DNA of 64,000 nucleotides from Liquidambar formosana (lineage: Eukaryota > Streptophyta > Magnoliopsida > Saxifragales > Altingiaceae): the NCBI GenBank assembly GCA_039720395.1, contig CM077831.1:1151001-1215000 (forward strand). The letters are read 5' to 3'. Positions 21,520-58,522 of the stretch are shown here, piece after piece. Under the pieces are notes generated by a model that had not been told where the DNA came from, searched no databases, and was given only the letters and a program-made list of their open reading frames with translations. Each line of letters opens with the position of its first letter. Positions within the stretch are counted from its first letter, which is position 1. Both the position numbers and the translations under genes were made by a program.

Positions 21520-21520
21520 G

Positions 21521-24950: not shown

Positions 24951-24959
24951 TAAAAATGA

Positions 24960-29965: not shown

Positions 29966-29971
29966 AAAACT

Positions 29972-35009: not shown

Positions 35010-35762
35010 TTACACATAATACTTCTTCAATTGATCTAAGTTGGTAGGGCGAGCAAACTCAATTCCATCCAAATCCATGAGGCGAATAGCCCCTGCTGGC
35101 AATATCTCTTTAATGACATACGGGCCACCCCAACTTGGCTTGAACTTCCCTCGTGGATCAAAAATTGGAGCTCTGATTTCTTTCAACACCAAATCCCCTT
35201 TCTTCAAACCTCGGTCTTTGACATGCTTGTTGAATGCTCTCGCAACCCTTCACTGATATCCCTGCACATGATATAAGGCCCTCAATCGCCTTTCATCGAG
35301 CAATGCCAGCTCATGATAACGGTTCTTAACCCACTCTGCTTCTGCTATCTGACTCTCCATGGCAACCCGTAATGACGGTACCTCCAACTCAATAGGCAAA
35401 ACAGCCTCCATCCCATACACCAAAGAATAAGGGGTAGCCCCTGTTGACGATCTTATAGATGTTCTATAGCCCCACAAGGCTAAGGGTAACTTCTCATGCC
35501 AATCAGTGTAAGTGTCAGCTGTTTTTTGTAGTATCTTCTTAACATTCTTGTTGGCGGCCTCTACTGCTCCATTAGTTTGCGGGCGATAAGGGGAGGATAG
35601 ATGGTGCACTATATTGTATTTCTGCAAAAGCTCCGTGGTTTCTTTCTGAAAGTGCTGACCATTTCTGAAATAATCTCATGGGGTACCCCATACCTATAGA
35701 TGATGTTGAGTTGTATGAACTGCGCTACCTTCTTGGCATTCAGGGTCTTAAAAGATGCTGCC
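35010..35762 (-). pseudogene. Element B pol, integrase C-terminal half
   Basis: Minus-strand end of a Ty3/gypsy polyprotein. From 35762 it reads integrase core (LNIIYRYGVPHEIIS), the PQTNGAVEAANKN block with the third catalytic acidic residue (E), WGYRTSIRSSTGATPYSLVY, then the C-terminal GPY/F-type module (FKPSWGGPYVIKEILPAGA), ending at the pol stop at 35010. Two lesions are visible. About one base is missing near 35661-35665, where the second catalytic Asp (SDNG-type motif) should be. An in-frame TGA lies at 35250-35252. The N-terminal side of the same domain lies at 58523-58658 beyond element C. Coordinates follow the TSD CTGCC (35758-35762). Confidence 0.9.
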
Positions 35763-38700
35763 TGTGGACCCCGAAAAAGAGTTAAGGCCCACGAGGGGTT
35801 TTAAGTTTGAAAAAGGAAACGGAGTCGCCACCTTATTTTTTAAAGGAAACAAGGAAAACCCTAAAAAACAGTTTTGTTTTAGGAAAACAAAAGATTGACT
35901 CCATATTTAAAAATGGAAAGGAAAATGATCTTTTGGAAACCAGAGAAATCGGGGATTCGGAGGCTAAGTTACGATATGGGAAGGTTCTAGGCAAAGCCTA
36001 TAGGCACCCATATCGCCCTAAACGGTCTCTTAATTTAATTGGGCTAAATCAAAGTCTTAATCACACACAAATCAACAGTTATCATCGCAAGACAGCATGC
36101 ATATCATTCATCCATTCATCCATATAATCAAGTAAATCAAAGAAAAATAGAAAAAGAAAGAGGGGGGAGAAAACCTAGGATACTTAGTATCCTAGGGCGG
36201 ACTTGAACCTCACAAGGAGCGCCTACGTACCATGTATGGAAATACATGGATCAAAGTCCACGTAGTTCGAATAGGAATAGGGTTATAACCTAATCAAGGC
36301 CTATGGTAAACCCTAAGTTTCCTTTCATGTAAAGCATGGTAAGTTTCCAAAGTAAATGATTCTCAAAGGATTTTTGGTAAAATATGGAATTTTGATAAAG
36401 ATGGAAACTTTGATTTAAAAGGCAATTTTTAATGAAAGGATACTATAGGAATCACCATATTCCCCTATTAGGAAACAACCCTAGGGGGGGAGAAAGGGAA
36501 AGTTTCAAAGAAAGGAAAGAAGGGTGAATTGGGGCACCCTCATACCCTACTTACCTTAAGCGAAAGCAACTTGTCAAAGTAACCACCCTATTGCATAGGG
36601 TAATTACCTTATTTGTAAGATTTCATCTTACAATAGCCAAAATAACCACCTCACATTGGTGGGGGAGTTGCACCTGTTGTACCTGTCAAAGCACCTGCCA
36701 TTTCCATGCAAAACATACCAAAAATACCAACCAAACAAGCTAGATTCCAAATCAAGCCATTATCATGCCCAAACATGGGCTAACACATGCTCAAAACATC
36801 ACATCAAGGACAAATAACAGATCTGGACAGAATTGAAATAAGGCTTAAAATCAACCACAAGTCATGCAACAACATGAATTATAAGCTAACTAAAACCCTA
36901 ATTCAACCCTACATGCAATGACATGCAAAAAACCCTAAAATCAACTATATGAATGCTAGAAATATCATAGTTACCTAATATGGAACACATATGCAGCAAC
37001 TATGAAGAAAAAACAGAGAAAATCCCTAACTAATCATGCTATATGCAACTTTCCTAATACAAGGATGAATGAAACCCTAGAATCACACTAGTGCATAAAA
37101 TTCCATGAAATAACCCTAAATCATGCAAAACAGAATATGAACAGCACTCTAACCATGCATATTAATCAATGGAATGATCCACACATGATAAAGACATAGA
37201 CTTTCACATGAAATAAAGCTATTCTAAGCATAAACTCAATTTCAGCACTAAGGAAACCCTAGAATCCCAAACATTCAGTAAATCACATGGAATAGTATCC
37301 TAGCATACTAAACAGCCCACAAATATCATCCTAACATGCATACTAGCTAATGGAAACAACAAAATACAATAAAAACATAAGCTTTAATATGCAAAAGTGT
37401 TATTTCATGCAGAAAACCAATTTCAGCACTAAGGGAACCCTAGAATCCCAAACATGCAGTAAATCGCATGGAATAGCATCCTAGCATACTAAACAGCCCA
37501 TGAATATTATCCTAATCATGCATACTAACTAATAGAAGTAGCAAAACACAATAAAAACACAAGCTTTAACATGGAATAATGCTATCCTATGCAAAAACCC
37601 TAATTTGAATGAAAGAGAGAAAGGGGGAGAGGTATACCTATGGTGAAGTCCCCTTTTGCTGCTGTAGAGAGTCCTCCTCCTCTTATTGTACTGCTGGAAA
37701 TTCCTTCCTTCAAACCTTCAAGCCCAACTCCAGCCCTCCTTCAAGCTTTCTCTCACACTCTCTCACTCAAAGTTTAGGTTAAACTACCCTAAGGATGGCT
37801 GCCATAGCCTCCAATGTGCCTCTTACTTCAAAAATTCCCTCCTCCATTGCTGAAGTATAAGGGGGTATTTATAGGGATTGAGGTAAAACCCTCAATGGTT
37901 GGGATTAAAACCCTAGGGATTGATCCAAGGGCTCTTAGAGGTTCCCTTGGGGCTCAAGTAGGTCAAATAGGGCTGAAATTAGGGTTAAATGGCGGCTGGA
38001 GGCGTGCAAATCCTAAAAAATAGGGAGGGAGCCGCGTCAAGACTCAAAAAAGGAAAGTGGCTCGGGTGACCACCTGGGGCTGGGCGGCTAGCCACCTGGG
38101 CCCAGGCGGCTAGCCGCCCGGGCCTGGGTGGTCACCCGAGGCCATGTCAGCTTAAGCCCATTTTTGACCCTTTCGACTTCCAAATGCGTTTCCGGGCTCA
38201 AATCAACTCCGATTTTGACGAAACGAAAGCCAAAACGACCGTGTTTCGAAGGGGAATGTAATTTGAGTCACTTGAGGGTAAGAAACCCTAGCCATGGCTG
38301 CATGGTTGGGTCCTACGAAGGTGGTTAACCGCTATGCCTCACCATCGCTTAGCTTAGGTATGCACATAGGGTCGCACCGAGTGCTTTCCAATTCGAAATT
38401 CAACCTCCCTAAACACATTTGGGGATGAAATTAAGACCCATCAAGGTCAAATGAGTAGTCATAGAGTGAAAATCATGAACCAATTCGGGCTAACCCGAAG
38501 TAGGTCTCTTAGCCAACCTGAGCCTTATTGAGCCATTCTAATCCCGAACCATCAATTCATCGAATTGAACCCACAAATACCTCAAATGCATCCATATGAA
38601 CTCCTATTGACAACTTGGAGATCATTTCAAGGTCAAATGGAAAGTTTGTGACCAAAAAGACGATTATGCCCCTCAAGTCACAAAAGTTCTTATTAAACCT

Positions 38701-38848
38701 CAAGATCAACTCCAAATCGAACCAAAATTCATACACATCATCCTTAGGACTCTGAAAACTCAATGAAAAAGACTAGACTCAAAAAAGGAAACAAAAAGAT
38801 ACATGATATGATAAACCCTAGCTAAGGTGGCAAAAATGGGGTGTGACA
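35763..38848 (-). repeat. 3' LTR of element C (3086 bp)
   Basis: TGTGGACCCC...GTGTGACA. TATA box on minus at 37866-37873, 80-bp palindrome 38061-38140. Two ~180-bp-spaced related segments begin at 37241 and 37421 (TTTCAGCACTAAGG...). Confidence 0.96.
38061..38140. promoter_or_regulatory. 80-bp palindromic module, 3' LTR of C
   Basis: Arms CTCGGGTGACCACC/GGTGGTCACCCGAG, inner GGCGGCTAGCCGCC is itself a perfect palindrome. 188 bp upstream of the TATA box in the transcribed direction. Confidence 0.93.
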
Positions 38849-38891
38849 GAAGCCCCTCATTGGTGCAGCAAGTTTCACTTGCGAACCAATG
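38849..38891 (-). other. Polypurine tract and adjoining nested hairpin, element C
   Basis: PPT (minus ATGAGGGGCTTC) overlaps an inverted repeat 38858-38891: outer CATTGGT/ACCAATG, inner GCAAGT/ACTTGC. Element B keeps the stems, though the sequence between them differs. Confidence 0.78.
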
Positions 38892-39004
38892 ATAAAAGAA
38901 CATCCCATTTTTGCCTGGGAGAGTAATTGCATCAAATTCAAATGGAGAACTCCATCATCCTATGGAATTCATCACATATCTTAAGCAACTAGAAGTCAAT
39001 GTCT

Positions 39005-41043
39005 GGGTAAAGGTCAATACCCAAGACAAGTAGAAGTAACTCTAAGTGAAGGTCAACCCCTAGGATGAGTACAAGTCAATACTCGAAGAGAATCGGTATT
39101 GGGAGTGAAGGTCAATACTCAGGGTGAGTAATAGTCAATACTCGAAAGGAGTAGGGATGAATATGAGTGGAGGTCAACACTCGGAGTGAGTACCAGTCAA
39201 TACTCGAAAGGAATAGGAATCAGTATTCAGAGTGAAGGTCAACACTCGGGATGAGTACCAGTCAATACTCGAGATAAATATGCTTTAATGATTAGAATGA
39301 GTATGGGTCAATACATAGGGTGAGTATGGGTCAATACTCAAGATGAATATGCGATAATATTCAGGGTAAGAATGGGTCAATACTTAGGATGAGTATATAT
39401 CAGTATTCGGAATGAGTATAGGTCAATACTCAGGAGAGCCAATAAAACATCGTATGAGTAAGAGTCATTACTCAAACGAGAACCCATGATGGATAGAATT
39501 CAACATCCATACTGAAAATCTAAAAAGAAATTCCATGAATAGAAGTCAATACTTAAAAACACACAAGCAAGGGTCAATGCTTGCTATGAGTAAAGATCAA
39601 TACTCATAAAGAAAAGCTTACGAGCAAGGGTCATTGCTTAAAATGAGTAGGATTCAATACTCACAGAGAAAGTCACACGAGCAAGGGTTAACACTCAAGA
39701 TGAAATGTATATAAGCAATGGTCAATGCTTGAAATGAGTAGGATTCAATACTCACAGAGAAAATCACTCGAGCAAGGGTCAATGCTCAAGATAACATGTA
39801 TATAAGCAAAGGTCAATGCTTGAAATGAGTAGGATTCAATACTCACAGAGAAAATCATTCGAGCAAGGGTCATTGCTCAAGATAAAATGTATATAAGCAG
39901 AGGTCAATGCTTGAAATGAGTAGGATTCAATACTCACAGAGAAAATTATTCGAGCAAGGGTCAATGCTCAAGATAAAATGTATATAAGCAAAGGTCAATG
40001 CTTGAAATGAGTAGGATTCAATATTCACAGAGAAAATCATTCGAGCAAGGGTCATTGCTCAAGATAAAATGTATATAAGCAGAGGTCAATGCTTGAAATG
40101 AGTAGGATTCAATACTCACAGAGAAAATTATTCGAGCAAGGGTCAATGCTCAAGCCAAAGTCAATGCTTGAAATGAGTAGGATTCAATACTCACAGAGAA
40201 AATCACTCGAGCAAGGGTCAATGCTCAAGCAAAAGTCAATGCTTGAAATGAGTAGGATTCAATACTCACAGAGAAAATCACTCGAGCAAGGGTCAATGCT
40301 CAAGATAAAATGTATATAAGCAAAGGTCAATGCTTGAAATGAGTAGGATTCAATACTCACTTAGAAAATTATTCGAGCAAGGGTCAATGCTCAAGATAAA
40401 ATGTATATAAGCAAAGGTCAATGCTTGAAATGAGTAGGATTCAATACTCACAGAGAAAATCATTCGAGCAAGGGTCATTGCTCAAGATAAAATGTATATA
40501 AGCAAAGGTCAATGCTTGAAATGAGTAGGATTCAATACTCACAGAGAAAATCATTCGAGCAAGGGTTAATGCTCAAGATAAAATGTATATAAGCAAAGGT
40601 CAATGCTTGAAATGAGTAGGATTCAATACTCACAGAGAAAATCATTCGAGCAAGGGTTAATGCTCAAGATAAAATGTATATAAGCAAAGGTCAATGCTTG
40701 AAATGAGTAGGAGTCAATACTCATAGAGAAAACTATATGAACAAAAGTCACTGTTGGTGATGAGTAGGGGTCAATACTCAAAGAATGCTGAGAGATTGCA
40801 TAGGTAGAAGTCAATACCTAAAACAATAACATATGAATAGAGGAGACATGCCGAAGGGGTTTGGAATCAATACCTATGATGGATAAGAATCAATATTATA
40901 GAACAAACAAGGATCAATGCTCGAGAAGGGAGTATGAGTGAATACTCAAAATGAGTGAAGGTCAACACTCAAGATGAATAAAAGTCAATATTCCAAATGA
41001 GCAAAGGTCAATGCTCAAGAAAAAAGAGTATAGGTAAATACTC
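39005..41043. repeat. Array of covarying 18-nt dyads, with 91-bp tandem repeats
   Basis: About 2 kb built of modules of the form 5-nt arm, 8-nt loop (usually ending GTCAA), complementary 5-nt arm. Examples: GGGTA/TACCC at 39005-39022; GAGTA/TACTC at 39067-39084; GAGTG/CACTC at 39165-39182; GAATA/TATTC at 39211-39228 and 40976-40993; AAGCA/TGCTT at 39565-39582; GAGCA/TGCTC at 40999-41016; AGGTA/TACCT at 40802-40819. Between about 39690 and 40730 three modules (AAGCA, GAGTA, GAGCA types) are joined into a 91-bp unit repeated about ten times, plus two shorter ~64-bp units. The open frames in it are repeat artefacts. Confidence 0.93.
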
Positions 41044-43315
41044 ATAGGGTAGAACGAAACATTAGTTAAGTAGGAGTCACTACTCATAAGACAAGGTTGG
41101 TATGAGGACAAAGCCAACACCACATAAAGAAAGAATATCATTCACACGGCTACTTGGTGCAACCCAATGGTGAATACTCAAGCAAATATGGTCATGGGAA
41201 AATGGACCTCCAAAACTCAATGAACACTGCATATTACTAATGCACACATCAATTAATCAATCAACTCAAGTAAAATTGATTCACACAGATTTATGAGCAC
41301 AAGTTCATGCACAGAAATATTATCTAGAAATGGTTTTGCAAACCTATCATTCTTTTTCCTTAAAGACCTCTTTACATACTTAGCACAATCATGGAATTTT
41401 CAGAAGCATTTTTCTTTGTTTATAAAATGGTGGTCGAGCCTTCTTAGGAAACAATGCAATTTAGGAGGATCGGATCAAACCCATGAATTCTTTTTCAAGG
41501 TATAGGAATGGAGTGGAATCACCTCTTATTCTCTTCTTCTTTCTTCACTTCTCTTTTTTCAAAACCCTAACTTTTGCCTAGATTGCCCTTACAGGTTTTC
41601 AACCTAGCGGGTTGCCCTAATTTTTGCCTAGGCCGCCCTTTCGGGTTTTCAACCTAGCAGGCTCTTCTTCTTTTCCTCTTTTTTTTTTTTTTCTTCTTCT
41701 TTTTCCCTTCTCTCCTTAGCAAAAAGAAATTCAACTCATGAAGCCCCAGCCCATTCCCTTCATCAATTCATTCAAGTTCTTTGAACAATACAAACTAGCC
41801 CCAGCATTCATTCAAATTCTTCTTTAACAAGCATAATCAGCCCCTGGGTTCATAACACATTCACGTTCTTCAATTGAGCAAAATAAATCAGCCCCCAATC
41901 TCACGAAATCACATGCCTACAGCTAAGGCAAATCGTTTCATAGTGGTTACTGCTACCCCTTTTCCATCATTAAATCCATGACAAGGGTCTAAGTCAAAAG
42001 GTAAGAAGATATAGAATTTGATGGAACCCACAAATGAATCATCATGATTGAATACTTTCAAAGGACGAGGTCTATGACCACTAGAAACACACAAGACTCA
42101 AGAGAGGCGAAAGAGGAAAGTGGAGGGACATCCGAAGGACTCAAACCAAACAAGAACAAGAAGAATAATCAAATTAACTTTCTCGGTGGCATGTAGTATT
42201 TTAGCTCACTAATTTAATGAATAAGACTGTTCCTTCTTAACTTAGTCACAAAGAATTGCCTTCAATGGTTGGTTATATGTAAAGCCTCTTTCTTTTTCCT
42301 ATTTTTTTTTTTTTCAATGAATTGGACCGCACCCAAAGTAACTTTATGGGCTGCCTACGTATCTCCACATTGATCTTCACAAGACATTTACAAAACAAAC
42401 ATTTCTTTTTTTGGTGGAGAATCAGGTCCTCGTAGTTCAAGGGATTCATTCTTCATTTTTTCAATAACCCTAACTTTTGCCTAGGTCGCCTTTTCAGGTT
42501 TTCAACCTAGCGGGCTTAGGCTCTACACATAACCACATAGGGACCACCCTTTACTTGGCTTGAACTTCTCCAACGAGTCACAAACATGGGTTGTAGTCTT
42601 CTTTGATCATAAAACTCTCTTGATTGTTGTTGATTCTCCTTCTTGAGGCTTTTGGATGTTAATCCCCTCCCTTTTCTTTTGTACTTTTTTTTGTTTTTTT
42701 GTGCACTTTTCACTCTTTTTTTTTTTTTATTTTCACAATTTTTCTTTTGACTTTTGTTTTTTTAGGGAGAGGGAAATAAACATCTCCAAAAGCTCACCAT
42801 GCTAATTGATTTCTTCTTTTGATCTTTGAATTGCTTCTTACAAGGGTTTCAAGATCTTCTCAAGTTGCTTGACCTAGGTCTTCATGTAGTGTAGTGGGCG
42901 GGTGGCCCCTATGTTTACCATTTTGGACTTCTCATTGTTTCCAAGTTAATCAATTATAGCTCATTCATCATTCATTATGTTTGCTCTTCTAGTGGGAAGA
43001 GCTTTCGAGCTTCTTAGGAAATATTTTCATGCCACTTTGATTGTCAATTGATTGAGGAGAAGAGAAATAGAGAGACAATGGAATTATTGAAATCAAACTT
43101 TTTATTGAGGGAATGAAGGTGAATACATTGACAATGACTGGGACTCAAAAGACTCAAAACTTCAAAGGACGTTTGACTCGAAAGACGAAAACAATCAAAT
43201 AACTAGAAAACAAAGAAATAAACCCTAAGTCTTCTGTAGGACAAACAACCTAAACTCTTTATCACAAACAGTCATGACAAAATTGGTGCGACAATAAACA
43301 CTAAATGGATTGCCT
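41044..43315 (-). other. Element C non-coding region with remnant of pol end
   Basis: No intact gene. T-rich tracts lie at 41675-41705, 42300-42315 and 42715-42730. Three copies of the GCCTAG...GGTTTTCAACCTAGC motif occur (about 41576, 41620, 42480). At 42535-42590 the text corresponds to the last part of element B's pol (minus-strand VKGGPYVV against element B's WGGPYVI), next to the same motif as in B. A Tat-like pol was therefore once here and has been deleted down to a scrap. Confidence 0.7.
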
Positions 43316-44602
43316 TTAGAGTGAATGATTGGGTACCTTAGGTGGAGAGACAATCCCCTTGTCAAAGAGGTCTTGGATTTCATGTTTCAACCTTGGGCAT
43401 CGATCAGTGCTATGCCCTTTGCCTTGGTGGAAGTCACAATACTCATTCTCTTTAAAGCGACGAGGTAATGGGTTAGGCAACGGTGCTGGGTCAAGGGATT
43501 GAAGCAAACCTTTCACCTTCAACTTCTCAAAAACATCGCTTAATGGCATGTAGAGTTTGGTAAATTGGCGGGACTGTTGGGGAGATATGGCATTAACATG
43601 CCTATGTGTCTTTCCATTACTTCCAGTTCGGGAACTCCCTAATATCTCATCTTCCTCAATTGTACCGTCACCAATGGCATCTTCTACTTGAGTTCCAGCC
43701 CCAATCAAGGCCTTAAAGTTTGGAAAATAGCTTGCAAATAGATGCTTATGGTAGATAGGGAGGAGGTTCTTAACTACCATCTGAATCTGCTCTTCTTCAT
43801 TGGGTCGGTTCACCATTTGAGAAGCCTTTCGTCTCCACCTTGTAATGAAAGCAGAGAAAGTCTCATTAGCCCTTTGTTTCGTGGTCTCTAGGTCCCTTCT
43901 TGTGACATCCACCTCAGTGTTGTACTTGTAGTGCTCCGAAAACTCATTACATATGTCCTCCCAAGTCCGGGTTCTATTCTCATCCAAGGCTAGGAACCAC
44001 TTTAAGGCAGAAGTGGCTAAGGTTTCATGGAACATTTAGGCCAAGAGTTCATCTGTTGCTCCTCGAGGGTGCATGGCTCGTACATACATCTTCAAATGGG
44101 TCTTGGGGCAACCCGTTCCATCAAACTTTTCTAATTCGGGCATCTTGAATTGTAATGGGATACGAGCTTGAGGAAACAAAGATAGGGTACGTACATCTAC
44201 CATGTCATCCGTCCTACGGATTCCCTTTGTAGTTCTCTCCAATGCTTCTACCTTGCTAGCCAACACAGAGTCTGTATCAGAGGTCTTCCCCTTACTTCCC
44301 CCTTCTAGGTTAAAAATTTCAGGTGGTTCACTCCCCTTAGGTTTAGTACTTCCTCCTTCATTGGTCTTAGTGCCTTCTCCAGACTGAGTCCCATCTTCGG
44401 TGTTATCTCCCGGGGTACGGCCATTATTCTGTTCGGGTTCCGATATCTTATGTTGGATCTCTTGGGCCATTTTCAATGCTCTCTCAGATACATCAGTGGT
44501 GTAATCAAGCTTGGTCATGATGGCTTTCAAACAAGCCTCAAGGTCAAAGTTCCTTTCACTAGTCCCTTTGTTAGCCATCTTGGGTTCAAAATTTGAGTCC
44601 AA
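43316..44602 (-). pseudogene. Element C gag, with internal stop
   Basis: Ty3/gypsy gag on minus. The first frame (44602-44036) begins MDSNFEPKMANKGTSE, has a coiled-coil-like stretch, an acidic/Gly-rich linker and the block RRTDDMVDVRTLSLFPQARI, then FDGTGCPKTHLKMYVRAMHP. An in-frame TAA at 44036-44038 follows DELLA. The same frame continues (44035-43316) through the capsid-like core (FHETLATSALKWFLAL, TWEDICNEFSEHYKYN, ETFSAFITRWRRKASQMV), and near its C-terminus has a C-x2-H-x4-H-x4-C knuckle (CDFHQGKGHSTDRC), ending at 43316. It is the only recognisable protein gene of element C. Whether a shortened or read-through product is made cannot be seen. Confidence 0.88.
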
Positions 44603-44957
44603 CCTTAATAAGTTGTCACGGGTTTAATCCAACCCCCCTTCAAGAACAAAATCCCCTTTTTAGGCTATGACCAAAACATTGTAATAATATTTCCATGACT
44701 GCGCTAAATTGATAAATGTGATCTTATAAAGCATCCCCTTAGTTAGACATCTCATCTTCAAGGGTACCTTGAAGTGTGAAGTGACGTACTAAGGACATGA
44801 AGGTGAGTCACTTAGCCTTAGGTTCTGGTTATTAACCATCACAAAACCATCAAGAGTCACTTTCCCCCAAGTGTAGGCAAACTATGAGCTAGGTCTAAAC
44901 AGGATATCTCCCTAGTTAGACACCTTATCCTCAAAAGTGTCCTTAAGACGGAAGGTG
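44603..44957 (-). other. Element C leader, part 1
   Basis: Leader directly before gag, up to the copia 2 insertion; non-coding. TSD copy AGGTG at 44953-44957. Confidence 0.7.
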
Positions 44958-46615
44958 TGTTGGGAATCGAACAAGAGGGAAAAATACAAAGGCGGAATAT
45001 AAAAATTTTTCCTACGATTCCCAATCCCATGAATCTAACTATGCATAACACAAAATCAAACCCTAACTACAAAGAGGGTTAGAACACTTACAGAATTTTT
45101 GTCTTCTCCTTTTCGCTCCAAGCTTTGATTCCGGACAGCGGTGAATGAGCAGCCCAAGTGTGCTGCCTCCAACGGTATCCACACCTAGCTAGAGCTTCAA
45201 GTCCTTTCTTTCTTCTTCCTTGTTGTTGCTAGAGGTGGAGAAGATAGAGAGAGAGAAGAGAGCCTCCAAGGGGCTGGACGGCTAGGGTTTATTGTGCAAG
45301 CCTCTTATGCCATGTCACACATAAGTGTGACTTATATAGGAAGCCCACTAAAGGGGGCTGGCCATGGGGAAGAAACCCTAATAGGGTTATGTGTAATTAC
45401 ACTTAATTGCACATTAACCCCTATTATTTGTATCAAATACAAATAGGCCTATAAAGAACTATTCTTTATTCACTAAAACCCTTTCTCTCATAGACTTTAA
45501 AGCCCTTCTTGCATGATCAGTGTGTGACCCATTGGGTTCACATCATTAAGTAGTAGGAATAGCACGAGGTGTGCACAATGGAACTCTTTCCATTTAGGGT
45601 CTAATTGGAACTCCTTCCAATTCCCTAATTGATTATAACTCACTTATATCAATTAGGGCTTCTACTAACCATGAGTAACACCTAGCATATGGCTCATGGT
45701 GTGGTCCTTAATGAGGTGAATAGTCATTTACAAAGAACCCTTCTGTTATAGTTTATAGGTTACAATTGCATCCTTCCTTCAACACAATGTCTCCAATTGA
45801 ACTAATAGGACATGGAAGTCTGTCAAGTCCCTAGTTCAATTACTTTATACTCATTCATAGATATCAACTCATTGATGAACTCATGAAACTCTTTTCATAT
45901 TCATCCTACCATGGCCATGGATTTAATGAGTTATATTATGAATGCTATATGAGACATTCTCTCTCTTTTTCCTGAGAGTGATGGATCCCTTGTTGATCAC
46001 TCACATGCCTTCATACACATAGCAGTAGGGCCAATGAACACCTTTGTAGACCCCTGAATAGGATCTGCACTTAGTGTTATCAAACTTCTAAAGCTACATG
46101 CATAAGGCAACTATGGTGTCTCAGGTCTAAGGATTACTTGTACCACTATAACAATGAGAAACTGATTGACAGGCAGGATAAAACTCCATTCAGTTTATCT
46201 CATATCTTTGGTCACATTCAGTGTACCTATTCTTATAATAGGCACCCACTTGTTGGTTGTAGTGTCTCCACACAAATAGCTTGAGACTAGCTATCCTCCT
46301 ATAGAGTCAACCTAACAAGTGCTAGTCCTATGGTTCATTACTGTCCATCATAGTGAACCTTCAACTAGGAATGCTTAAGGAGTTTAGTACAGAGATATAT
46401 CTATAGTCTCAAAATTACAACTCTTTGTAATTCCATATTCTCAACTCTAACTCCATGGACATATTATGTAAATATAAATGATGCATATAAACATAATAGA
46501 ATAAGCCCTTTTATTAAATCAATAATAAATGTGACATACATAAATGAAATCAAATGATTGTTCCTAATCCCTAAACAATCATCTCTATGATTGGCTCTAG
46601 GGCATAATCCTAACA
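44958..46615 (-). repeat. 3' LTR of copia 2 (1658 bp)
   Basis: Plus-strand ends TGTTGGGAATC...CCTAACA; PPT abuts the right edge. Palindrome 45314-45331 next to TATA (minus TATATAA, 45332-45338). Confidence 0.96.
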
Positions 46616-46631
46616 ATCTCCCACTTGCACT
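46616..46631 (-). other. Polypurine tract of copia 2
   Basis: The minus strand reads AGTGCAAGTGGGAGAT, identical to copia 1. Confidence 0.88.
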
Positions 46632-49570
46632 AAAGCCAATCGACCATGTATCGCATACCTATCTTCTCAAGATGTTGGTCTTAGACATAACCAATTATGT
46701 TTTAAAGCTTTAGTCAGTAGGTCTACAAAAACTTATGTAGATAATATCTTCTGTAATGTATCTATTACCTCTTCCAATGATTCCTCTAATCACTTGGAAT
46801 TGTCACTCTATGAGTTTGGACTTTTGATGAGACCGTGATTCCTATACTTGAGCTATAGACCCATTGTTGTCACAAAACAAGGTGTGGGCAACTCAATGGA
46901 AGGAACAACTCTAAGTTCTAAATGAACTTATAGATCCAAACAGTCTCCTAGACAATGCGACAATTAATTCACCCTCAATAATGGAATCCACTGTATCTTT
47001 CATACAGTTCTTCCATTAAGTATTTCACCAACTAAAGTGAATATAAAATATACCCCATATGGATTATATCCAAATTCATATACCCATCTACTATGAGTTT
47101 ACAATTTCCATATACAATCCAATATTCCAAATTTGAATTGATTGATAACTATTTGTAACAATTACAACATAATAGATATCAGGTTCAATACATAGTGTAA
47201 AATAAGGCTTCTTAACACTTTAAGAATCTTACTTGTGTTATCCTAGGGCACATGCCCTTGAATAATGAATTCTTATCTGAAGTAAATCAGACCTCCCTTA
47301 GAATTCTCCATGTTGAACTCCTTCAACATTTCAACTATGTTTGATGATTTGGAGATACTTAGCAATCTATATGATCTATCTCTATAGATCTTATTGAATG
47401 CTTTTGCCAAATCTTTCATGAATTAGTTTTTCTCCAAAAACTAAAACTTTACATTAGATAACATTCATATATCATTCATAATGATTATGATGTCATCCAT
47501 ACTTAGGATAAAGAAAAACGATCGCACTCCCACTAACCTTTTATACACTCATGGTCCATCTATACAATGAGAGAAATCAAACAATTTGATTACCTCAACT
47601 TTATAGATGTTCTAATTATGAGAACCTTGTAGTCTATTAATAGACTTCTATAACTTACACACTTTTATGGTTTTTCACCATTTGATATAACATCTTTATA
47701 TCCTTTTTGACATATCTTATATTCAAAATGTGTGTTTATAGATAACAAGATCCAAATGGATTTCAGCATAACTATTATCAAACAAGTTTCTTTATAGACA
47801 ACTTTTTGCCTATGTTGAAAACATTCTTAAATAGCCAAGCCTTTTAGGTCTCTACCTGTCCATATTGGATTTAATGACTCTTAGTCATTTCTCAAGTTGA
47901 TGTCAAACATCGCCTAATCATAATCAATAGGATTATCTTGGTGATCTTTATCACCAAAGAACAATTCTTTCACATTCTAATAGAGATACAATATCTCTCT
48001 TATGTTAAAGAAATATCCAATTTGATCTATGAAAAGATTGTAGTGTAGTTAAGGGTTTTGTCTCAACAGAGACAAGGGTTGGATCTTTGTTCGTTTGTGG
48101 CTTTACAGACAATTCTATAAATTCTATCTACTTTTGCATATTTCTTGAATGAACTCTTTCTCAAGAAAATCCAGCAAACATCCTAATGGACAACTTTTGT
48201 TCAATAGGGTAATAGAAATACTATCCCAACCACTTTTGGGATATACCACAATTCAACACTTACTTGACCTTATTTCCAGATTGTCTACATTATGTTTCCA
48301 GACAAACGTAGCACAAGCCCAAGCCTTAACTTCTTTAAGTTGGGTTTCTTCCCATATCATATCTGATATAATTGGGACAAAACTGGAGTGAACCCTAAAT
48401 TATCAATATGTAGCAATTTTAAGGTATATCCTAGATGGATACATTAGTAAAACTCATCATGGATCAAACCATATCTTAATAGGGTTCAATTCGTTCTCTT
48501 AGATTCACCATTGAGCTATGGTATTCTAAGATGAGTCTACTATAATTGAATGCATGCTCTACATGACTGTATACATCACAATGTATAGTCAAATTATAAA
48601 TGTAACTCATTCACTTCACCAAGTAAAAGATGGGTTTGGTCATCTCATAACCAAGTCATAATCGTTACATTTAAATGAGAGTCTCTACATCTCTTGTATT
48701 CTCGGAATACGTTGCATTCGCTCTAATTAGTCATTTAAATTCAGAAATCAAATTTCTAGAATGTCTTAAATGACCTAGTTAAGAAATAAGTTCCCAAAAT
48801 TAATCTAGCAACTCTTGCTCTATTAAAATTTTTAAAGGTAACTTATTATCTACTTAACTTTCTGCTTCCATTTAGATTACACTATAATCCAAAAACCAAG
48901 AAGCAGAACTAACCAACAATTTAGTTTAGAGCATGAACCAAAACTTCAAAAGTTTGGTTCTTCTAGGAAGACTGATACTTTATCAATTTCCCTTTACAAT
49001 ACCTTATGTTTACTACAAAATAATTATATTTCTTTGTCTTTGACTTTTCAAGACTTGCTTTCCTCTATGCTTCCATTTTAAATCACATCTAGCTTCTCAA
49101 GCTATTCTATGTGATTAATCATTTTTCAAAAGAATGATTATTAATAAACAAATTTTATTACATCCTAGTCCAGAAGAAGTCCTTTATAAGTACTATACTT
49201 TATAGTATTATTTTACTCACCATACAACCTTTGTATGTGAAGTAGGACATCAAAGGCATTTGCATTGACTAATTTTGCTTCTGAAGTTCATTAGTCATCA
49301 ATACTATCATATAGCATGGCAACAAGATGCCAATTGCGCATAGTGTCTTTTTCTTCTTAGGATGTTTTATGGAGGGCCTTTAATAAAAGGCCTAATAGCA
49401 TATAAACAATCTTTTGAAATTGAGAACAATTCTCAATTTCCTAAGTCAATCAAAGAAATCAGGTTTAGTCACACTATCAATATCCTATATATTAGGAAAT
49501 AGGGGTTTTGAGGTGAGTAATTAGGTAATCTACATAAACAGAGAATTAGATTTCATTTTTATCCATAATG
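46632..49570 (-). pseudogene. Copia 2 gag-pol remnant
   Basis: Reverse complement of the decayed coding region of copia 1. The RNase H end is readable near 46800-46875 on minus (CDNNGSIAQV, TAG at 46842-46844, ESRSHQKS). RT fragments lie near 47300-47530. There is no open frame longer than about 80 codons in the sense direction. The antisense frame at 48149-48391 and its copia 1 partner are shadows. Total length and the checked stop match copia 1, so the lesions were already in the source copy. Confidence 0.85.
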
Positions 49571-52500
49571 ATTGGGTCTTTAATCATATGGTACCTCCCA
49601 CTATTTTATCAAATTCCATACACCCTCTAATGGAATTCGGGAATCTCATTCCTAATGGGGATTGGGGTCCCACTGTGACCTAGAAGCCTCACATGTTAGT
49701 TTCTTGGCTTCTAACCCACAATAAGAAGACAACTCTTTGTCTATTGCTTCATAAGCAAGTTCCAATCGTTTTGCCTCTAGGGAACATACACCTCACATGT
49801 TAGTTTCTTGGAATACTTCCCTAGTTAAGTTAAACCCATCATTCACACAGGTATGTTTCGCCAAATATATACCTCACATGTTAGTTTCTTGGTATATACC
49901 AGTTTAGGCACCCCATGATATCTCATATGTGATAGTTTCAAGTAATGTCTTTAACATGGGTAGCTCCTACATGTCTGTAGCCAGGTACCCACATTAAGGG
50001 ACGTTAGATGATCCTATAATGATGGAAGGCGATGAAGAATTCATTCCCCAATGACTTCTCCATTTTCAACTTAATATTAAATAAGAGGGGTTTTTAAAGG
50101 GTCTCATCAAATTAACATGCATCCTATGTATCAAAATTTAAACATATAAATTATGCTATTTATAATCATACATCTCATGCTATTATAAATCATACATCGC
50201 ATGCTATTATATATCAACATATATAAAGTACCATATTTTGATATTAGTCCCTAAGTGAATAGGTAACATATACCAAACTATGGTATTGGAGCTAATACAA
50301 TTATCTCATAAATTTAAGCTCCCACTATGATGATTATGGACTTTGAGAGGATTCAATCCAAGCCAATAGATTGAATCCAAGGTCTAAGGTGGGTGTAGGT
50401 GATCGTAAAATAAACCATTCGTAAGATGCATGCTTTCTTGAAAAACTTCTCTAAGCTTTCAAGTCCTTCAATCTGCTCCCTTGACTTAATGGTCTCCACC
50501 ATTGGCTTGTTGGTCTCCACCATTGGCTTGTTGGTCTCCATCATACTCCTTTGGGTCCACCATGCTCCTTAGTGCGCTCTCGATTACATAACATTTACAT
50601 AATATATAGAAAGGGATACATAAGGGGAATGTGGGGTACATAAGAGAATCATAGAGAGAGAGGGAAGGTGGCATGCAAGCCCCAAATAATAAATTACATC
50701 ACCATAATAAAATTACAACTCTTGAAAAATTATTACAACCCATTCATAAGACGGCCAATCACAATTGGTTTAAGGGGTATAGTCCATAATCATCATCCAA
50801 ACACATACATACAATCTCATTGCATAATGTAAAGAAAAACTGTAAGCATTAAAACATATGGGCATTATGGTAATTCTCTTGAATGATTTACATTAATCTC
50901 ATTAATGCATCCTAATCTTATTAGGTTTTAACAAAAATATCCAGAATTAAATAAAGTCTTAACATTTAAGACATTACAGTTTCAATTAATCAAATTAATT
51001 TAAAACATGTAAAGTTTCCTAAAATAACTCTAATATCCAATATTAGGGTTTCCTTAATTAAACAAAACAATTTCATTTAATTAAGAACTTCCAGATTTTA
51101 ATTTAATCCCTAATTGTGTTTTAAACCATTTAAAACATTATAAAATTAATCAATATTAATTAAATAATTAATATAGGAATTAAATAAAATCATTAAAATG
51201 ATGAATTAGTGTATTAGGGTTTCCTAAAACCCTAAACCCTAAATGCATAACCCTAAACCCTAAATGCAAGCCCTAATCATTAAATGCCTTATGATTGGTC
51301 ATTTAATGTCCAATCATTAAAACCCTAGGTTCATATGGTATTTAATAAAAGGGATTAGGGTTTAATTAATGCCAAATAGGGTATTAATTACCCTTAATTA
51401 ATTACACTAATTAGGGTTTCCAAAACCCTAACCCTAGACATCATTAATGGTATTAATTATGCCCTAACAATCAATAACCATGATTGGTCATTTAATGACC
51501 AATCATTAACTCTTAATTAAGGTAATTAATATTCCAATTAGGGTTTTAATTAATGCCATAATGAAATTAGGGTTTCATCATTAACTCAAAATTAGGGTTT
51601 CATCCTTAACTCTATGCAGCCGCCACTACCAGGGGGCCGCCTGAGCTTGGCTAGGCTGCCATGGCCACCAACGACTGTGGGAGGCCATGGCCAGTCATGG
51701 AAGAACATCCTAGGGGTGTGGGACAAGCCTCTGGACACGTGAGAAGTGGTGGAAGTGGCTGCCATCATCAAGAACAATCAGGGTTTCCAAAACCCATTGC
51801 TGGAGCCATTGTTGCAGACCTTGAAGGTCACAATAGCTTCTAAATCCTTATCAATTCGACTCCTCCATTGAAACCAGCTTTTGTATCATGTCCCTACATG
51901 AAATACTAAGCTAATAGAAGAGGTTTGGATGATCAAATCATCACCAATTGTTCTAAACAATTAAAACAACAGTAGGCTGCCCAGAATTTGACAGCACACT
52001 GTCCATGGTCAGAAATTGATTTAAAACCCAGCAAGATGAATGAATTAGGCTACCAAACGAATTTTCCCAGTATCCTACATGTCTTAGGAAACTAATGCAA
52101 TTGGTTTCATGCAATTTGGAGTTCCCTAACTCAAGTTCTAATCAAAACTCCATTGATGACTTTTCTGCAGAGAAAATCTGCTATGCTGTTTATGAAAAAT
52201 TTTCAAACTTTTTGAATCTTTTTCCATCAAAACCTTTTTGAAACTTAAAGAAAATCATATACACATGATATATAATGATCCTACAATGATCTTCCATCAT
52301 AAATACAGCAGCTTTAATTAGAATTAATTGCAAGAACCTTAGGGTTCTAAAACCCAGATTCAGCCTCCATGGTGTTCTTCTCCTTCTTCCTTCTGTTCTA
52401 GCGTCTTAATCCAATTATGATGCATCTAAATGCTTGGGAACCTTTCCCTACCATGTCTAGAACATAACCCAAGTGGTGGCAACCATTGCCATGCCTTTGA

Positions 52501-52999
52501 TCTCCATCAATAACTCAAAGTTGTGGCTATTGCATCATTCCCGAGCAAAACTGTCTTTCCAGACAGCCTGTAGTAAAAAATTCATAACTTTCACTACAGA
52601 ACTCGGATTGATGCACCGTTTGTTGGGTTGGAAAGCTTATTCGAAGAGCTTTCTAACCATATATGGCTCGAAAATTTTGGAGAAGAACTCTGAATTCGGC
52701 AGGCAAAACAAGATGACGGTTTTTCATGGCAACCATGAAAACTGTTCATAACAGTTTTATAAAACCCTAGTTTCCTTATTCTTCTTCTCCAAACTCAAAC
52801 CCTATGCAACCTATTGCATCCATGGATACACTTAACCATCAATTAGAAGAGGAGTAGAAGAGAATTGACCTAGGGTTCCAAACCCTAGGTTCAACCATGG
52901 AGGAAAACCAATTATGCAGAAAAAATTTTCCAGATTTTTGAATCATTCAACTACACCATAATTACCAGCCCATATGTATTTTGTATTATGCATAATCAT
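49571..52999 (-). other. Copia 2 leader, non-coding
   Basis: Counterpart of 21534-24950. Palindromes at 51291-51317 and 51480-51506, dense AAACCCTAA motifs around 51220-51600 and four CCTCACATGTTAGTTTCTTGG-type motifs around 49690-49900. No sense gene. Confidence 0.7.
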
Positions 53000-53012
53000 G
53001 GCTCTGATACCA
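53000..53012 (-). other. Primer binding site of copia 2
   Basis: The minus strand reads TGGTATCAGAGCC, a perfect initiator tRNA-Met site. Confidence 0.93.
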
Positions 53013-53013
53013 C

Positions 53014-54671
53014 TGTTGGGAATCGAACAAGAGGGAAAAATACAAAGGCGGAATATAAAAATTTTTCCTACGATTCCCAATCCCATGAATCTAACTATGC
53101 ATAACACAAAATCAAACCCTAACTACAAAGAGGGTTAGAACACTTACAGAATTTTTGTCTTCTCCTTTTCGCTCCAAGCTTTGATTCCGGACAGCGGTGA
53201 ATGAGCAGCCCAAGTGTGCTGCCTCCAACGGTATCCACACCTAGCTAGAGCTTCAAGTCCTTTCTTTCTTCTTCCTTGTTGTTGCTAGAGGTGGAGAAGA
53301 TAGAGAGAGAGAAGAGAGCCTCCAAGGGGCTGGACGGCTAGGGTTTATTGTGCAAGCCTCTTATGCCATGTCACACATAAGTGTGACTTATATAGGAAGC
53401 CCACTAAAGGGGGCTGGCCATGGGGAAGAAACCCTAATAGGGTTATGTGTAATTACACTTAATTGCACATTAACCCCTATTATTTGTATCAAATACAAAT
53501 AGGCCTATAAAGAACTATTCTTTATTCACTAAAACCCTTTCTCTCATAGACTTTAAAGCCCTTCTTGCATGATCAGTGTGTGACCCATTGGGTTCACATC
53601 ATTAAGTAGTAGGAATAGCACGAGGTGTGCACAATGGAACTCTTTCCATTTAGGGTCTAATTGGAACTCCTTCCAATTCCCTAATTGATTATAACTCACT
53701 TATATCAATTAGGGCTTCTACTAACCATGAGTAACACCTAGCATATGGCTCATGGTGTGGTCCTTAATGAGGTGAATAGTCATTTACAAAGAACCCTTCT
53801 GTTATAGTTTATAGGTTACAATTGCATCCTTCCTTCAACACAATGTCTCCAATTGAACTAATAGGACATGGAAGTCTGTCAAGTCCCTAGTTCAATTACT
53901 TTATACTCATTCATAGATATCAACTCATTGATGAACTCATGAAACTCTTTTCATATTCATCCTACCATGGCCATGGATTTAATGAGTTATATTATGAATG
54001 CTATATGAGACATTCTCTCTCTTTTTCCTGAGAGTGATGGATCCCTTGTTGATCACTCACATGCCTTCATACACATAGCAGTAGGGCCAATGAACACCTT
54101 TGTAGACCCCTGAATAGGATCTGCACTTAGTGTTATCAAACTTCTAAAGCTACATGCATAAGGCAACTATGGTGTCTCAGGTCTAAGGATTACTTGTACC
54201 ACTATAACAATGAGAAACTGATTGACAGGCAGGATAAAACTCCATTCAGTTTATCTCATATCTTTGGTCACATTCAGTGTACCTATTCTTATAATAGGCA
54301 CCCACTTGTTGGTTGTAGTGTCTCCACACAAATAGCTTGAGACTAGCTATCCTCCTATAGAGTCAACCTAACAAGTGCTAGTCCTATGGTTCATTACTGT
54401 CCATCATAGTGAACCTTCAACTAGGAATGCTTAAGGAGTTTAGTACAGAGATATATCTATAGTCTCAAAATTACAACTCTTTGTAATTCCATATTCTCAA
54501 CTCTAACTCCATGGACATATTATGTAAATATAAATGATGCATATAAACATAATAGAATAAGCCCTTTTATTAAATCAATAATAAATGTGACATACATAAA
54601 TGAAATCAAATGATTGTTCCTAATCCCTAAACAATCATCTCTATGATTGGCTCTAGGGCATAATCCTAACA
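53014..54671 (-). repeat. 5' LTR of copia 2 (1658 bp)
   Basis: Adjacent to the primer site. TATA (minus) 53388-53394 with palindrome 53370-53387. Confidence 0.96.
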
Positions 54672-55415
54672 AGGTGAGGTGACATACTAAGGACATAAAG
54701 ATGAATAAGCCCCAACTTCTTAACCCTTAATTAAACACTTCATTCCAAACAAGCCCCTATTGGTTTACTTAAAAGCCCATGATTAAATGATCTTAGCTCA
54801 CATACCTCTAATTAGTCCATCCTTCCTTTTGGGAGCCCTCTGGGTGAAGGGTGGATGTACTTACTAAGGGTACATAGGTGAGACCATATATCAAGTGTTA
54901 ATCACTACACATGGTTAAAGTAAACCTAAGCCTAGAACACAACTTATGAGCATAGCAACACAACACAAGCACGGCATGATATCATTACAATCAAGTGTGG
55001 GTGCATAAAGGTGAGACCATAGTGCCCTACAAGTCTGTCTATATGGACTAATGATAAGGGTAGGCTGGGGTCCTTCACTTGCTTGAGCAATCTTTATACC
55101 TAACCACATGTGGCATCAGGAACGCCGCGTGGGTCCAGCAGTACGTGATTAACTCATTTAATATACCCAAGGGCAAGCCCAAGGGTACTTGGCAAGAGAG
55201 GTTGAGAGCTTTCGCCCCAACACATGGAATCAGGAAAACCAAGGTTGAGGCTAGGCCCGTCAGTGGCAAGGGACATCGATCCTAACATGCAAGAGTTTGC
55301 GCACACAATGCAATAAATGAAAGCACACAATCAAGCGAATGCAATGTGATTGATTTTAATTAAACAAAAGAAATTAACTTAGCCCAATCAAATTGTATAG
55401 AGTCTAGCCCACAAA
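54672..55415 (-). other. Element C leader, part 2
   Basis: Between primer site and copia 2; non-coding. The stretch 55080-55290 is related to the leader of element E (4500-4690). Confidence 0.7.
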
Positions 55416-55433
55416 TCCCCAGCAGAGTCGCCA
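55416..55433 (-). other. Primer binding site of element C, tRNA-Arg-like
   Basis: The minus strand reads TGGCGACTCTGCTGGGGA, three bases inside the LTR, close to the complement of a plant tRNA-Arg 3' end. Confidence 0.82.
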
Positions 55434-57539
55434 AACTGTGGACCCCGAAAAAGAGTTAAGGCCCACGAGGGGTTTTAAGTTTGAAAAAGGAAACGGAGTC
55501 GCCACCTTATTTTTTAAAGGAAACAAGGAAAACCCTAAAAAACAGTTTTGTTTTAGGAAAACAAAAGATTGACTCCATATTTAAAAATGGAAAGGAAAAT
55601 GATCTTTTGGAAACCAGAGAAATCGGGGATTCGGAGGCTAAGTTACGATATGGGAAGGTTCTAGGCAAAGCCTATAGGCACCCATATCGCCCTAAACGGT
55701 CTCTTAATTTAATTGGGCTAAATCAAAGTCTTAATCACACACAAATCAACAGTTATCATCGCAAGACAGCATGCATATCATTCATCCATTCATCCATATA
55801 ATCAAGTAAATCAAAGAAAAATAGAAAAAGAAAGAGGGGGGAGAAAACCTAGGATACTTAGTATCCTAGGGCGGACTTGAACCTCACAAGGAGCGCCTAC
55901 GTACCATGTATGGAAATACATGGATCAAAGTCCACGTAGTTCGAATAGGAATAGGGTTATAACCTAATCAAGGCCTATGGTAAACCCTAAGTTTCCTTTC
56001 ATGTAAAGCATGGTAAGTTTCCAAAGTAAATGATTCTCAAAGGATTTTTGGTAAAATATGGAATTTTGATAAAGATGGAAACTTTGATTTAAAAGGCAAT
56101 TTTTAATGAAAGGATACTATAGGAATCACCATATTCCCCTATTAGGAAACAACCCTAGGGGGGGAGAAAGGGAAAGTTTCAAAGAAAGGAAAGAAGGGTG
56201 AATTGGGGCACCCTCATACCCTACTTACCTTAAGCGAAAGCAACTTGTCAAAGTAACCACCCTATTGCATAGGGTAATTACCTTATTTGTAAGATTTCAT
56301 CTTACAATAGCCAAAATAACCACCTCACATTGGTGGGGGAGTTGCACCTGTTGTACCTGTCAAAGCACCTGCCATTTCCATGCAAAACATACCAAAAATA
56401 CCAACCAAACAAGCTAGATTCCAAATCAAGCCATTATCATGCCCAAACATGGGCTAACACATGCTCAAAACATCACATCAAGGACAAATAACAGATCTGG
56501 ACAGAATTGAAATAAGGCTTAAAATCAACCACAAGTCATGCAACAACATGAATTATAAGCTAACTAAAACCCTAATTCAACCCTACATGCAATGACATGC
56601 AAAAAACCCTAAAATCAACTATATGAATGCTAGAAATATCATAGTTACCTAATATGGAACACATATGCAGCAACTATGAAGAAAAAACAGAGAAAATCCC
56701 TAACTAATCATGCTATATGCAACTTTCCTAATACAAGGATGAATGAAACCCTAGAATCACACTAGTGCATAAAATTCCATGAAATAACCCTAAATCATGC
56801 AAAACAGAATATGAACAGCACTCTAACCATGCATATTAATCAATGGAATGATCCACACATGATAAAGACATAGACTTTCACATGAAATAAAGCTATTCTA
56901 AGCATAAACTCAATTTCAGCACTAAGGAAACCCTAGAATCCCAAACATTCAGTAAATCACATGGAATAGTATCCTAGCATACTAAACAGCCCACAAATAT
57001 CATCCTAACATGCATACTAGCTAATGGAAACAACAAAATACAATAAAAACATAAGCTTTAATATGCAAAAGTGTTATTTCATGCAGAAAACCAATTTCAG
57101 CACTAAGGGAACCCTAGAATCCCAAACATGCAGTAAATCGCATGGAATAGCATCCTAGCATACTAAACAGCCCATGAATATTATCCTAATCATGCATACT
57201 AACTAATAGAAGTAGCAAAACACAATAAAAACACAAGCTTTAACATGGAATAATGCTATCCTATGCAAAAACCCTAATTTGAATGAAAGAGAGAAAGGGG
57301 GAGAGGTATACCTATGGTGAAGTCCCATTTTGCTGCTGTAGAGAGTCCTCCTCCTCTTATTGTACTGCTGGAAATTCCTTCCTTCAAACCTTCAAGCCCA
57401 ACTCCAGCCCTCCTTCAAGCTTTCTCTCACACTCTCTCACTCAAAGTTTAGGTTAAACTACCCTAAGGATGGCTGCCATAGCCTCTAATGTGCCTCTTAC
57501 TTCAAAAATTCCCTCCTCCATTGCTGAAGTATAAGGGGG

Positions 57540-57547
57540 TATTTATA
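57540..57547 (-). promoter_or_regulatory. TATA box of 5' LTR, element C
   Basis: TATAAATA on minus, the likely core promoter of element C. Confidence 0.6.
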
Positions 57548-57734
57548 GGGATTGAGGTAAAACCCTCAATGGTTGGGATTAAAACCCTAGGGATTGATCC
57601 AAGGGCTCTTAGAGGTTCCCTTGGGGCTCAAGTAGGTCAAATAGGGCTGAAATTAGGGTTAAATGGCGGCTGGAGGCGTGCAAATCCTAAAAAATAGGGA
57701 GGGAGCCGCGTCAAGACTCAAAAAAGGAAAGTGG

Positions 57735-57814
57735 CTCGGGTGACCACCTGGGGCTGGGCGGCTAGCCACCTGGGCCCAGGCGGCTAGCCGCCCGGGCCTG
57801 GGTGGTCACCCGAG
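57735..57814. promoter_or_regulatory. 80-bp palindromic module, 5' LTR of C
   Basis: Copy of the module at 38061; in U3, 188 bp upstream of the TATA box. Confidence 0.93.
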
Positions 57815-58522
57815 GCCATGTCAGCTTAAGCCCATTTTTGACCCTTTCGACTTCCAAATGCGTTTCCGGGTTCAAATCAACTCCGATTTTGACGAAACGA
57901 AAGCCAAAACGACCGTGTTTCGAAGGGGAATGTAATTTGAGTCACTTGAGGGTAAGAAACCCTAGCCATGGCTGCATGGTTGGGTCCTACGAAGGTGGTT
58001 AACCGCTATGCCTCACCATCGCTTAGCTTAGGTATGCACATAGGGTCGCACCGAGTGCTTTCCAATTCGAAATTCAACCTCCCTAAACACATTTGGGGAT
58101 GAAATTAAGACCCATCAAGGTCAAATGAGTAGTCATAGAGTGAAAATCATGAACCAATTCGGGCTAACCCGAAGTAGGTCTCTTAGCCAACCTGAGCCTT
58201 ATTGAGCCATTCTAATCCCGAACCATCAATTCATCGAATTGAACCCACAAATACCTCAAATGCATCCATATGAACTCCTATTGACAACTTGGAGATCATT
58301 TCAAGGTCAAATGGAAAGTTTGTGACCAAAAAGACGATTATGCCCCTCAAGTCACAAAAGTTCTTATTAAACCTCAAGATCAACTCCAAATCGAACCAAA
58401 ATTCATACACATCATCCTTAGGACTCTGAAAACTCAATGAAAAAGACTAGACTCAAAAAAGGAAACAAAAAGATACATGATATGATAAACCCTAGCTAAG
58501 GTGGCAAAAATGGGGTGTGACA

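Follow-up and report, generated by a model that had tools for sequence, protein, structure and literature searches.

Within a window of 64,000 nucleotides of the Liquidambar formosana genome (contig CM077831.1, positions 1,151,001 to 1,215,000), which is the whole stretch of DNA analysed here, a young LTR retrotransposon, named here element C, carries an array of short dyads (38987..41085, minus strand) whose arms have co-varied between modules at exactly the five arm pairs, beyond what a null model aware of the module tree produces. Each module comprises a 5-nt arm, an 8-nt loop and a second 5-nt arm, with the sense-strand majority GAGUA-UUGACCCn-UACUC. Because the two arms have changed in concert, their hairpin shape was probably of importance at some past time. 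The best explanation, to which we assign a probability of roughly 45%, is that the array represents many small RNA hairpins in the 3' untranslated region of a gag-only relative of Tat-lineage elements, with pairing favoured while the modules diversified. Selection, RNA as the form in which the arms pair, and a function are what we infer from these data. The hairpins would be formed by the sense strand (GAGUA-UUGACCnn-UACUC) in the genomic RNA of the non-autonomous element, and during the multiplication and divergence of modules in the replicating lineage the variants keeping the stem would have been favoured, so that the arms would have drifted jointly by G-C/A-T exchanges. Single hairpins would be dispensable, and it is their number that would matter. 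Their most likely use may be that of a structured, multivalent portion of the genomic RNA next to the 3' LTR, acting, for example, in Gag capture and packaging into the particles of an autonomous relative, or in RNA protection.

Element C, the host of the array, is read from the minus strand and is a young LTR retrotransposon of the gag-only kind. Its 3' LTR (35763..38848) and 5' LTR (55437..58522), both on the minus strand, show 3 differences in 3086 bp, have the ends TGTGG...TGACA, and are flanked by the 5-bp target-site duplication CTGCC (35758-35762 and 58523-58527). A putative primer-binding site, TGGCGACTCTGCTGGGGA (55416..55433, minus strand), was recognized by sequence reading only and is presumably tRNA-Arg-like; Tat-lineage elements use non-Met tRNA primers (Arg and others). 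The gag region (43316..44623, minus strand) consists of two consecutive open stretches in the same frame with one stop between them and contains a Retrotrans_gag domain (PF03732, E=1.8e-11), and there is no other sense-strand internal open stretch of at least 90 aa in the element. Gag, LTRs and the putative primer-binding site are thus present and no pol was found, as judged by open stretches of at least 90 aa and by six-frame pieces inspected by eye. Among the best 120 of 163 matches, the named relatives of gag include proteins of Castanea, Quercus and Fagus, together with one short match labelled Modestobacter, and none of 15 pattern matches of gag in viral contigs was confirmed. A 9.7 kb nested LTR retrotransposon (44958..54672, given without strand) lies inside element C, outside the array. 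The 5-bp target-site duplication, the TG...CA LTRs and a tandem array between the coding region and the 3' LTR are traits of the Tat lineage or of LTR elements found in element C and, there being no pol ORF, its Tat membership rests on a shared LTR family.

As the sense strand of element C is the minus strand, the array belongs to its 3' untranslated region and is separated from the 3' LTR by about 140-160 nt. Beside this LTR there is also a strong hairpin (38857..38892, minus strand; TCATTGGT...ACCAATGA, inner GCAAGT/ACTTGC), common to an older copy of the same LTR family, at 12538-12604. This older copy occupies 9679-14151 and 31196-33121, its LTR is about 88-90% identical, and it has an 80-bp tandem array of its own (12758-13076); plus-strand (antisense) plant-mobile-domain (PMD) fragments in it flank a later insertion (14152-31195). 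Within this insertion, which is bounded by a 1.2-kb direct repeat, lies a match to the plant C/D snoRNA snoR71 (19501-19607), the one match to Rfam at gathering thresholds in the whole window, with none in the array of element C. The LTR of element C itself contains a GC-rich 22-bp repeat, CCACCTGGGCCTGGGCGGCTAG, in 2.7 copies (38070-38128).

The dyad array that the preliminary description had placed at 39005-41043 is real, with limits at about 38987 and 41085, the outermost module (38987) being decayed and pairing at 2/5 positions. There are 56 perfect 5-8-5 dyads in 39005-41043, whereas 200 dinucleotide shuffles averaged 1.8 and never gave more than 6. A weight-matrix scan recognized 71 modules in 38849-41400 and two weak matches elsewhere in the window; 68 of these modules lie in 39005-41068, and the other three were excluded from the pairing statistics. 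The arms pair at 5/5 positions in 54 of the 68, at 4/5 in nine and at 3/5 in five, and when modules were chosen by the loop only, 49/67 were perfect. The examples listed in the preliminary description are all present, with the start of GAGTG/TACTC corrected from 39102 to 39103; the one at 39345 was not caught by the scan and was included by register. Pairing is perfect in 47/59 cases within the module and in 2/59 between the arms of neighbouring modules, which rules out intermodule pairing as the true structure and identifies the 18-mer as the unit. No open stretch of at least 90 aa exists within the array, so a protein-coding array is ruled out, and the array patterns had no match in viral contigs or prokaryote genomes.

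The array is divided into three parts, all read on the minus strand. The left part (39045..39272) holds an older higher-order unit of about 62 bp with three dyads, alignable across copies (TRF period 62); the middle part (39623..40736) is formed by an amplified 91-bp unit, with the three dyads AAGCA/TGCTT, GAGTA/TACTC and GAGCA/TGCTC, plus 75-bp variants (TRF periods 91 and 75); and the right part (40737..41085) contains divergent modules and, in a group of other copies, a GTGAA-loop subarray. The loop core is less constant than the near-invariant GTCAA initially proposed, since GTCAT, GTTAA and TTCAA also occur in element C, and GTGAA in the subarray of those copies; only its T (52/53 rows) and its first A (53/53 rows) are nearly invariant.

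The excess of pairing is found at arm positions 0-4, and none at flank or inner-loop positions. Among 41 distinct modules, 186/205 cells are paired and 27 modules are perfect, whereas the maxima over 5000 right-arm shuffles are 159 and 16. For the tree tests five rows were added by register (39149, 39276, 39345, 40858 and 40881). Against a tree and parsimony-matched null, which is approximate because the tree of 28 columns is likely poorly resolved, the 53 distinct rows have 236/265 cells paired (null mean 143.6, maximum 204 in 2000 runs) and 35 perfect modules (null maximum 19). On the same tree, seven compensatory double changes fall on single branches, where the null has a mean of 1.6 and reached 7 in 1/2000 runs. 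By corrected mutual information, the five true arm pairs are all within the top ten column pairs. The covariation persists when the recent 91-bp array is set aside (n=36; 155/180 cells, shuffled maximum 138), when each distinct loop is represented by a single module, and when the left and right parts are tested on their own. An independent count gave 90.9% of cells paired, falling to 33-47% when the partner was slid by 1-3 columns; three measures (paired cells, cells with a change on either side of the pair alike, and the covariation score) were each above all 500 shuffles, and the numbers of pairs with both-side change (87/500) and of further pair types (92/500) were not outstanding against them. 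Double changes occur at all five pairs, with G-C/A-T exchanges throughout. Right-arm shuffles, the tree-aware null, slid partners and part-wise tests thus agree with the earlier argument that the matched double changes go beyond plain duplication.

With regard to the strand, the stems of the modules in folded RNA have a mean probability of 0.55 on the sense strand versus 0.27 on the antisense strand, exceeding 0.5 in 40 versus 16 of the 68 modules. For folding as a whole the sense strand has no advantage: z for the array is -11.8 sense and -11.2 antisense, and the left part folds at -90.3 kcal/mol sense versus -112.4 kcal/mol antisense. Isolated module stems are weak, with a mean of about -3 kcal/mol. 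Two of the three units of element C tested, the 91-bp unit and 40930-41020, beat nearly all shuffles with z about -3.0 to -3.7, on a scale where some non-array control pieces reach about -2; the 62-bp unit does not fold clearly better than its shuffles on either strand. The modules described earlier as showing G-T wobble do not show it in RNA, because a plus-strand G-T is an A.C in an element whose sense strand is the minus strand. On that sense strand, no wobble bias was seen among the mismatches of element C (G.T 10 versus A.C 8), nor among distinct one-mismatch modules over copies (68 versus 59, in a scan that required a purine/pyrimidine arm pattern and so leans to transitions). The preference for G-U over A-C that is expected of a selected RNA structure was therefore not found.

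The same genome (718 Mb, 370 contigs) contains many copies of the family, and 67 other loci were examined, 39 retrieved by the array and 28 by the LTR end and the adjoining hairpin. Copy numbers are lower bounds, since the genome searches scored 40/267 and 40/1478 candidates, and the identical counts in L036/L037, L044/L045 and L061/L062 may stem from duplicated stretches. The 39 array-retrieved loci have 44 to 87 modules each, and a scan not conditioned on pairing found 1518 of their 2281 modules to be perfect. Their 11 fully paired arm types can each be reached by transitions from GAGTA/TACTC, in a scan without the purine/pyrimidine condition; among the 38 arm types with at least 10 occurrences, from the scan with that condition, nine are perfect. 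In the 28 loci retrieved by neighbouring sequence, the array is present in 22, with 23 to 81 modules; of the remaining six, five have arrays of 80-bp and/or 53-bp units instead, and the sixth, L070, is interrupted by another insertion. In L009, L033 and L036 the right part includes a subarray of GTGAA-loop dyads, with arms mostly GAGTA/TACTC and the first three loop bases variable. When the most frequent states over 40 copies are taken for the 23 modules of the left block (39005 to 39588), 14 are perfect and nine imperfect, two of the 23 (39188 and 39211) having 18-19 gapped rows.

Orthologous modules were followed in the left block, to which all orthologue tests apply. In 62 copies, a set that leaves out L070 and five sister loci, arm pairs were compared with decoy pairs, using the 112/115 arm pairs left after removal of columns gapped in more than 20 rows. 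Breaks (119, decoy mean 118.3) and restorations (24, made up of 2 compensatory changes, 8 reversals and 14 pairs unpaired at the root; decoy mean 25.9) match the decoys, so there is no clear sign of selection on pairing during the radiation of the family; paired cells at the leaves (5879, decoy mean 5746.8) stay inside the decoy maximum of 5944, and same-branch double changes with the pair kept number 0 (decoy mean 0.6). In 40 copies there is no same-branch double change between orthologous modules, and internal branches show no deficit of breaks (20, versus 50 on terminal branches, with tree lengths of 0.192 and 0.414). An excess of restorations in a base-matched test (17 versus 6.5) disappeared with decoy partners keeping the mutability of each site, and we do not rely on it, because hypermutable sites are uncontrolled there and controlled in the decoy test. 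Present-day genomic copies thus seem to lose hairpins at a neutral rate, and the covariation exists between modules, not as an excess in the recent history of the family. The proposal that pairing is or was selected consequently finds support for the past only, and not exclusively: under a modelled repeat phylogeny the covariation is significant among modules, whereas in the copies arm pairs break as often as decoys and regain pairing no more often, so that part of the outcome named beforehand as refuting the proposal was observed.

Outside CpG and CHG contexts, arms changed less than spacers over 40 copies, both at A/T sites (0.29 versus 0.42 changes per site) and at other C/G sites (0.45 versus 0.84), figures that carry no significance test, and the A/T sites of the loop core changed least (0.16 per site). 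Transversions are alike in arms (27 in 223 sites) and spacers (27 in 199 sites). The outermost pair of module 39005 is a pair switch with both intermediates present, the 40 copies comprising A-T 29, G-C 5, A-C 3, G-T 2 and A-A 1. The 24 distinct arm pairs include 22 paired double departures, each of them a transition plus a transition, and the 10 single transversions are unpaired. On the module tree, 23/42 transitions end paired versus 0/11 transversions (P=0.0012; 0/5 and P=0.047 without four decayed rows, which belong to the five added by register). Such transition-only paired changes are expected if compensation proceeds via a tolerated wobble, not by copying of one arm from the other.

Self-pairing explains arms that change freely while staying complementary, which leaves either selection on RNA hairpins or hairpin-templated copying. 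The latter, which we regard as the main rival even if a somewhat unlikely one, holds that during module duplication or reverse transcription the nascent strand folds back on itself so that one arm serves as template for the second, making hairpins perfect at birth that later decay neutrally. The seven one-branch double changes on the module tree (as one-step copying predicts) and the neutral decay of orthologous copies at the decoy rate fit copying at module birth, and amplified arrays are mostly perfect, both in the 91-bp unit of element C and in the GTGAA subarray of L033 and L009. The process is documented for RNA hairpins in passages of PMC8794818, and part of PMC7004042 offers abnormal strand transfer as a hypothesis for the 3' UTR arrays of this lineage. 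However, no double change between orthologous modules occurred in one step in either set of copies; 0/53 loops are nearer to the inverted than to the normal form, even though intrastrand switching need not invert them; and the paired changes are all transitions, whereas copying should carry transversions too. These three observations make us lean to selection on RNA hairpins, with which neutral decay also fits if selection was confined to the past or to the replicating lineage.

The other explanations are less probable still. Recognition at the DNA level, as 18-bp sites of a dimeric protein or as cruciform or hairpin DNA, perhaps for antisense transcription, would agree with mismatches that lack an RNA-strand bias, with the antisense PMD fragments beyond the array of the older copy, and with the 39 occurrences of TTGAC[CT], which we take to be the W-box core, on the sense strand of the array. 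We nevertheless consider it quite improbable, and the protein-bound dyad suggested in the preliminary description unlikely, because the arms change freely while complementary: a sequence-reading protein would fix the arm sequence, not the complementarity, and the array-retrieved loci show 11 fully paired types. Moreover, element C apart from its nested element has a single internal plus-strand open stretch of at least 90 aa (44309-44596, 95 aa), and this one lacks a PMD match; the loop C required in a W-box is replaced in the common GGATTCAA loop, which weakens a W-box array as an explanation. Chance, by which a few module types arose and were copied so that the apparent covariation is repeat phylogeny, draws on the recent origin of many modules by copying in the 91-bp array and on the decoy test, where the sampled copies show no excess of compensation; it is rejected by the tree-aware null, approximate as this is, and by the collapsed sets, while the left and right parts each show covariation and the signal is restricted to the five pairs, and we therefore judge it very unlikely.

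A sister subfamily with 80-bp and/or 53-bp arrays (L057, L059, L060, L064 and L065) extends the comparison. The hairpin at 38857-38892 occurs in these loci too, which were retrieved with that sequence. A pol with RVT_1 and RT_RNaseH, then RVT_3 and Integrase_H2C2, lies in order on the sense strand 3-13 kb beyond L064 (in L077), the two being taken as the same element, and rve stays below the curated cut-off. By its position, the RVT_3 in L077 is probably the aRH, the extra RNase H between RH and INT that is a Tat-lineage trait, and the relevant passage of PMC6317226 gives the domain order of angiosperm Tat elements as RT, RNase H, aRH and integrase. An open stretch with DUF7745 (PF24924) was seen antisense to an RT-bearing ORF (L076:7582-8058, minus strand). 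The sister arrays are unrelated in sequence to that of element C. One of the three pieces tested from the 53-bp array clearly beats its shuffles on the sense strand: the unit with ATGAGAAAGAT-tgc-ATCTTTCTCAT, whose folding exceeds 300/300 shuffles on both strands (z -4.4 sense, -3.5 antisense). A second unit is better than its shuffles on the antisense strand only (1 of 300), and a 46-bp piece has no clear advantage on either strand. Three 80-bp units fold better than shuffles on at most one strand, and with these mixed energies and one paired G-C to A-T change in 11 distinct 17-mers (27 occurrences) the 80-bp unit was rejected as a second clear hairpin array. Among the 22 distinct GAAAGAT modules of the sister loci, the six whose right arm ends in ATCTTTC or ATCTATC have GG, AG or AA before GAAAGAT, and the other 16 have GA.

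The good folding of the 53-bp unit is suggestive only as support for the hairpin reading. We think it doubtful, albeit worth stating, that Tat-lineage elements keep next to the 3' LTR an array of many weak RNA hairpins whose shape, unlike its sequence, is conserved, as GAGTA-type 18-mers in one subfamily and the unrelated 53-bp unit in the sister. If this were true, the hypervariable 3' UTR arrays would amount to a multivalent RNA element that turns over rapidly and serves packaging or protection.

Among the closest known systems are the hypervariable tandem arrays that Tat-lineage (Ogre/Retand) elements carry in their 3' UTR, for which Macas 2009 is cited. The array of element C shares with them the position between coding region and 3' LTR, the variation of copy number between copies and the subfamily-specific sequence, and differs in that its units are covarying hairpins. 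The statement that no such retrotransposon feature had been described must be narrowed, since the parts of PMC7004042 and PMC11963269 that concern the Tat lineage describe tandem arrays in this region. Covarying dyads in them are another matter: the main text of PMC7004042 contains no hairpin, dyad or palindrom-, that of PMC11963269 no hairpin, secondary structure or inverted repeat, with palindrom- only in its reference list, and among the open-licence PMC text listed we found no account of them. According to portions of the same papers, the origin and possible function of the arrays in the Retand 3' region are unknown (PMC11963269), and 3' region arrays seed plant satellites (PMC7004042). 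An array with five covarying pairs thus offers a testable handle, on either a structured RNA or a reverse transcription that makes perfect hairpins at module birth, and either answer touches compensatory evolution and how new satellites begin.

TR-GAG elements are gag-only non-autonomous plant LTR retrotransposons, which element C resembles in having LTRs and gag with no pol ORF found, and from which it differs by its 3.1 kb LTRs, its hairpin array and the stop in its gag frame. Centromeric satellite DNA with dyad symmetry also exists and likewise presents short dyads in tandem; however, the array of element C lies inside the 3' UTR of one element, in a single orientation, and its arms co-vary. 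Retroviruses have packaging stem-loops. Template-switch mutations, which create and maintain RNA hairpins as set out in part of PMC8794818, would likewise let perfect stems and compensatory changes arise by mutation, but the modules of element C show neither loop inversion nor same-branch doubles between orthologous modules. Packaging determinants are also described for Ty1 and Ty3 (PMC4974528, in part). These and the retroviral stem-loops are structured or cis-acting RNA near the end of a retroelement genome, and packaging is one possible job of the hairpins described here, whereas element C has dozens of similar hairpins in its 3' UTR.
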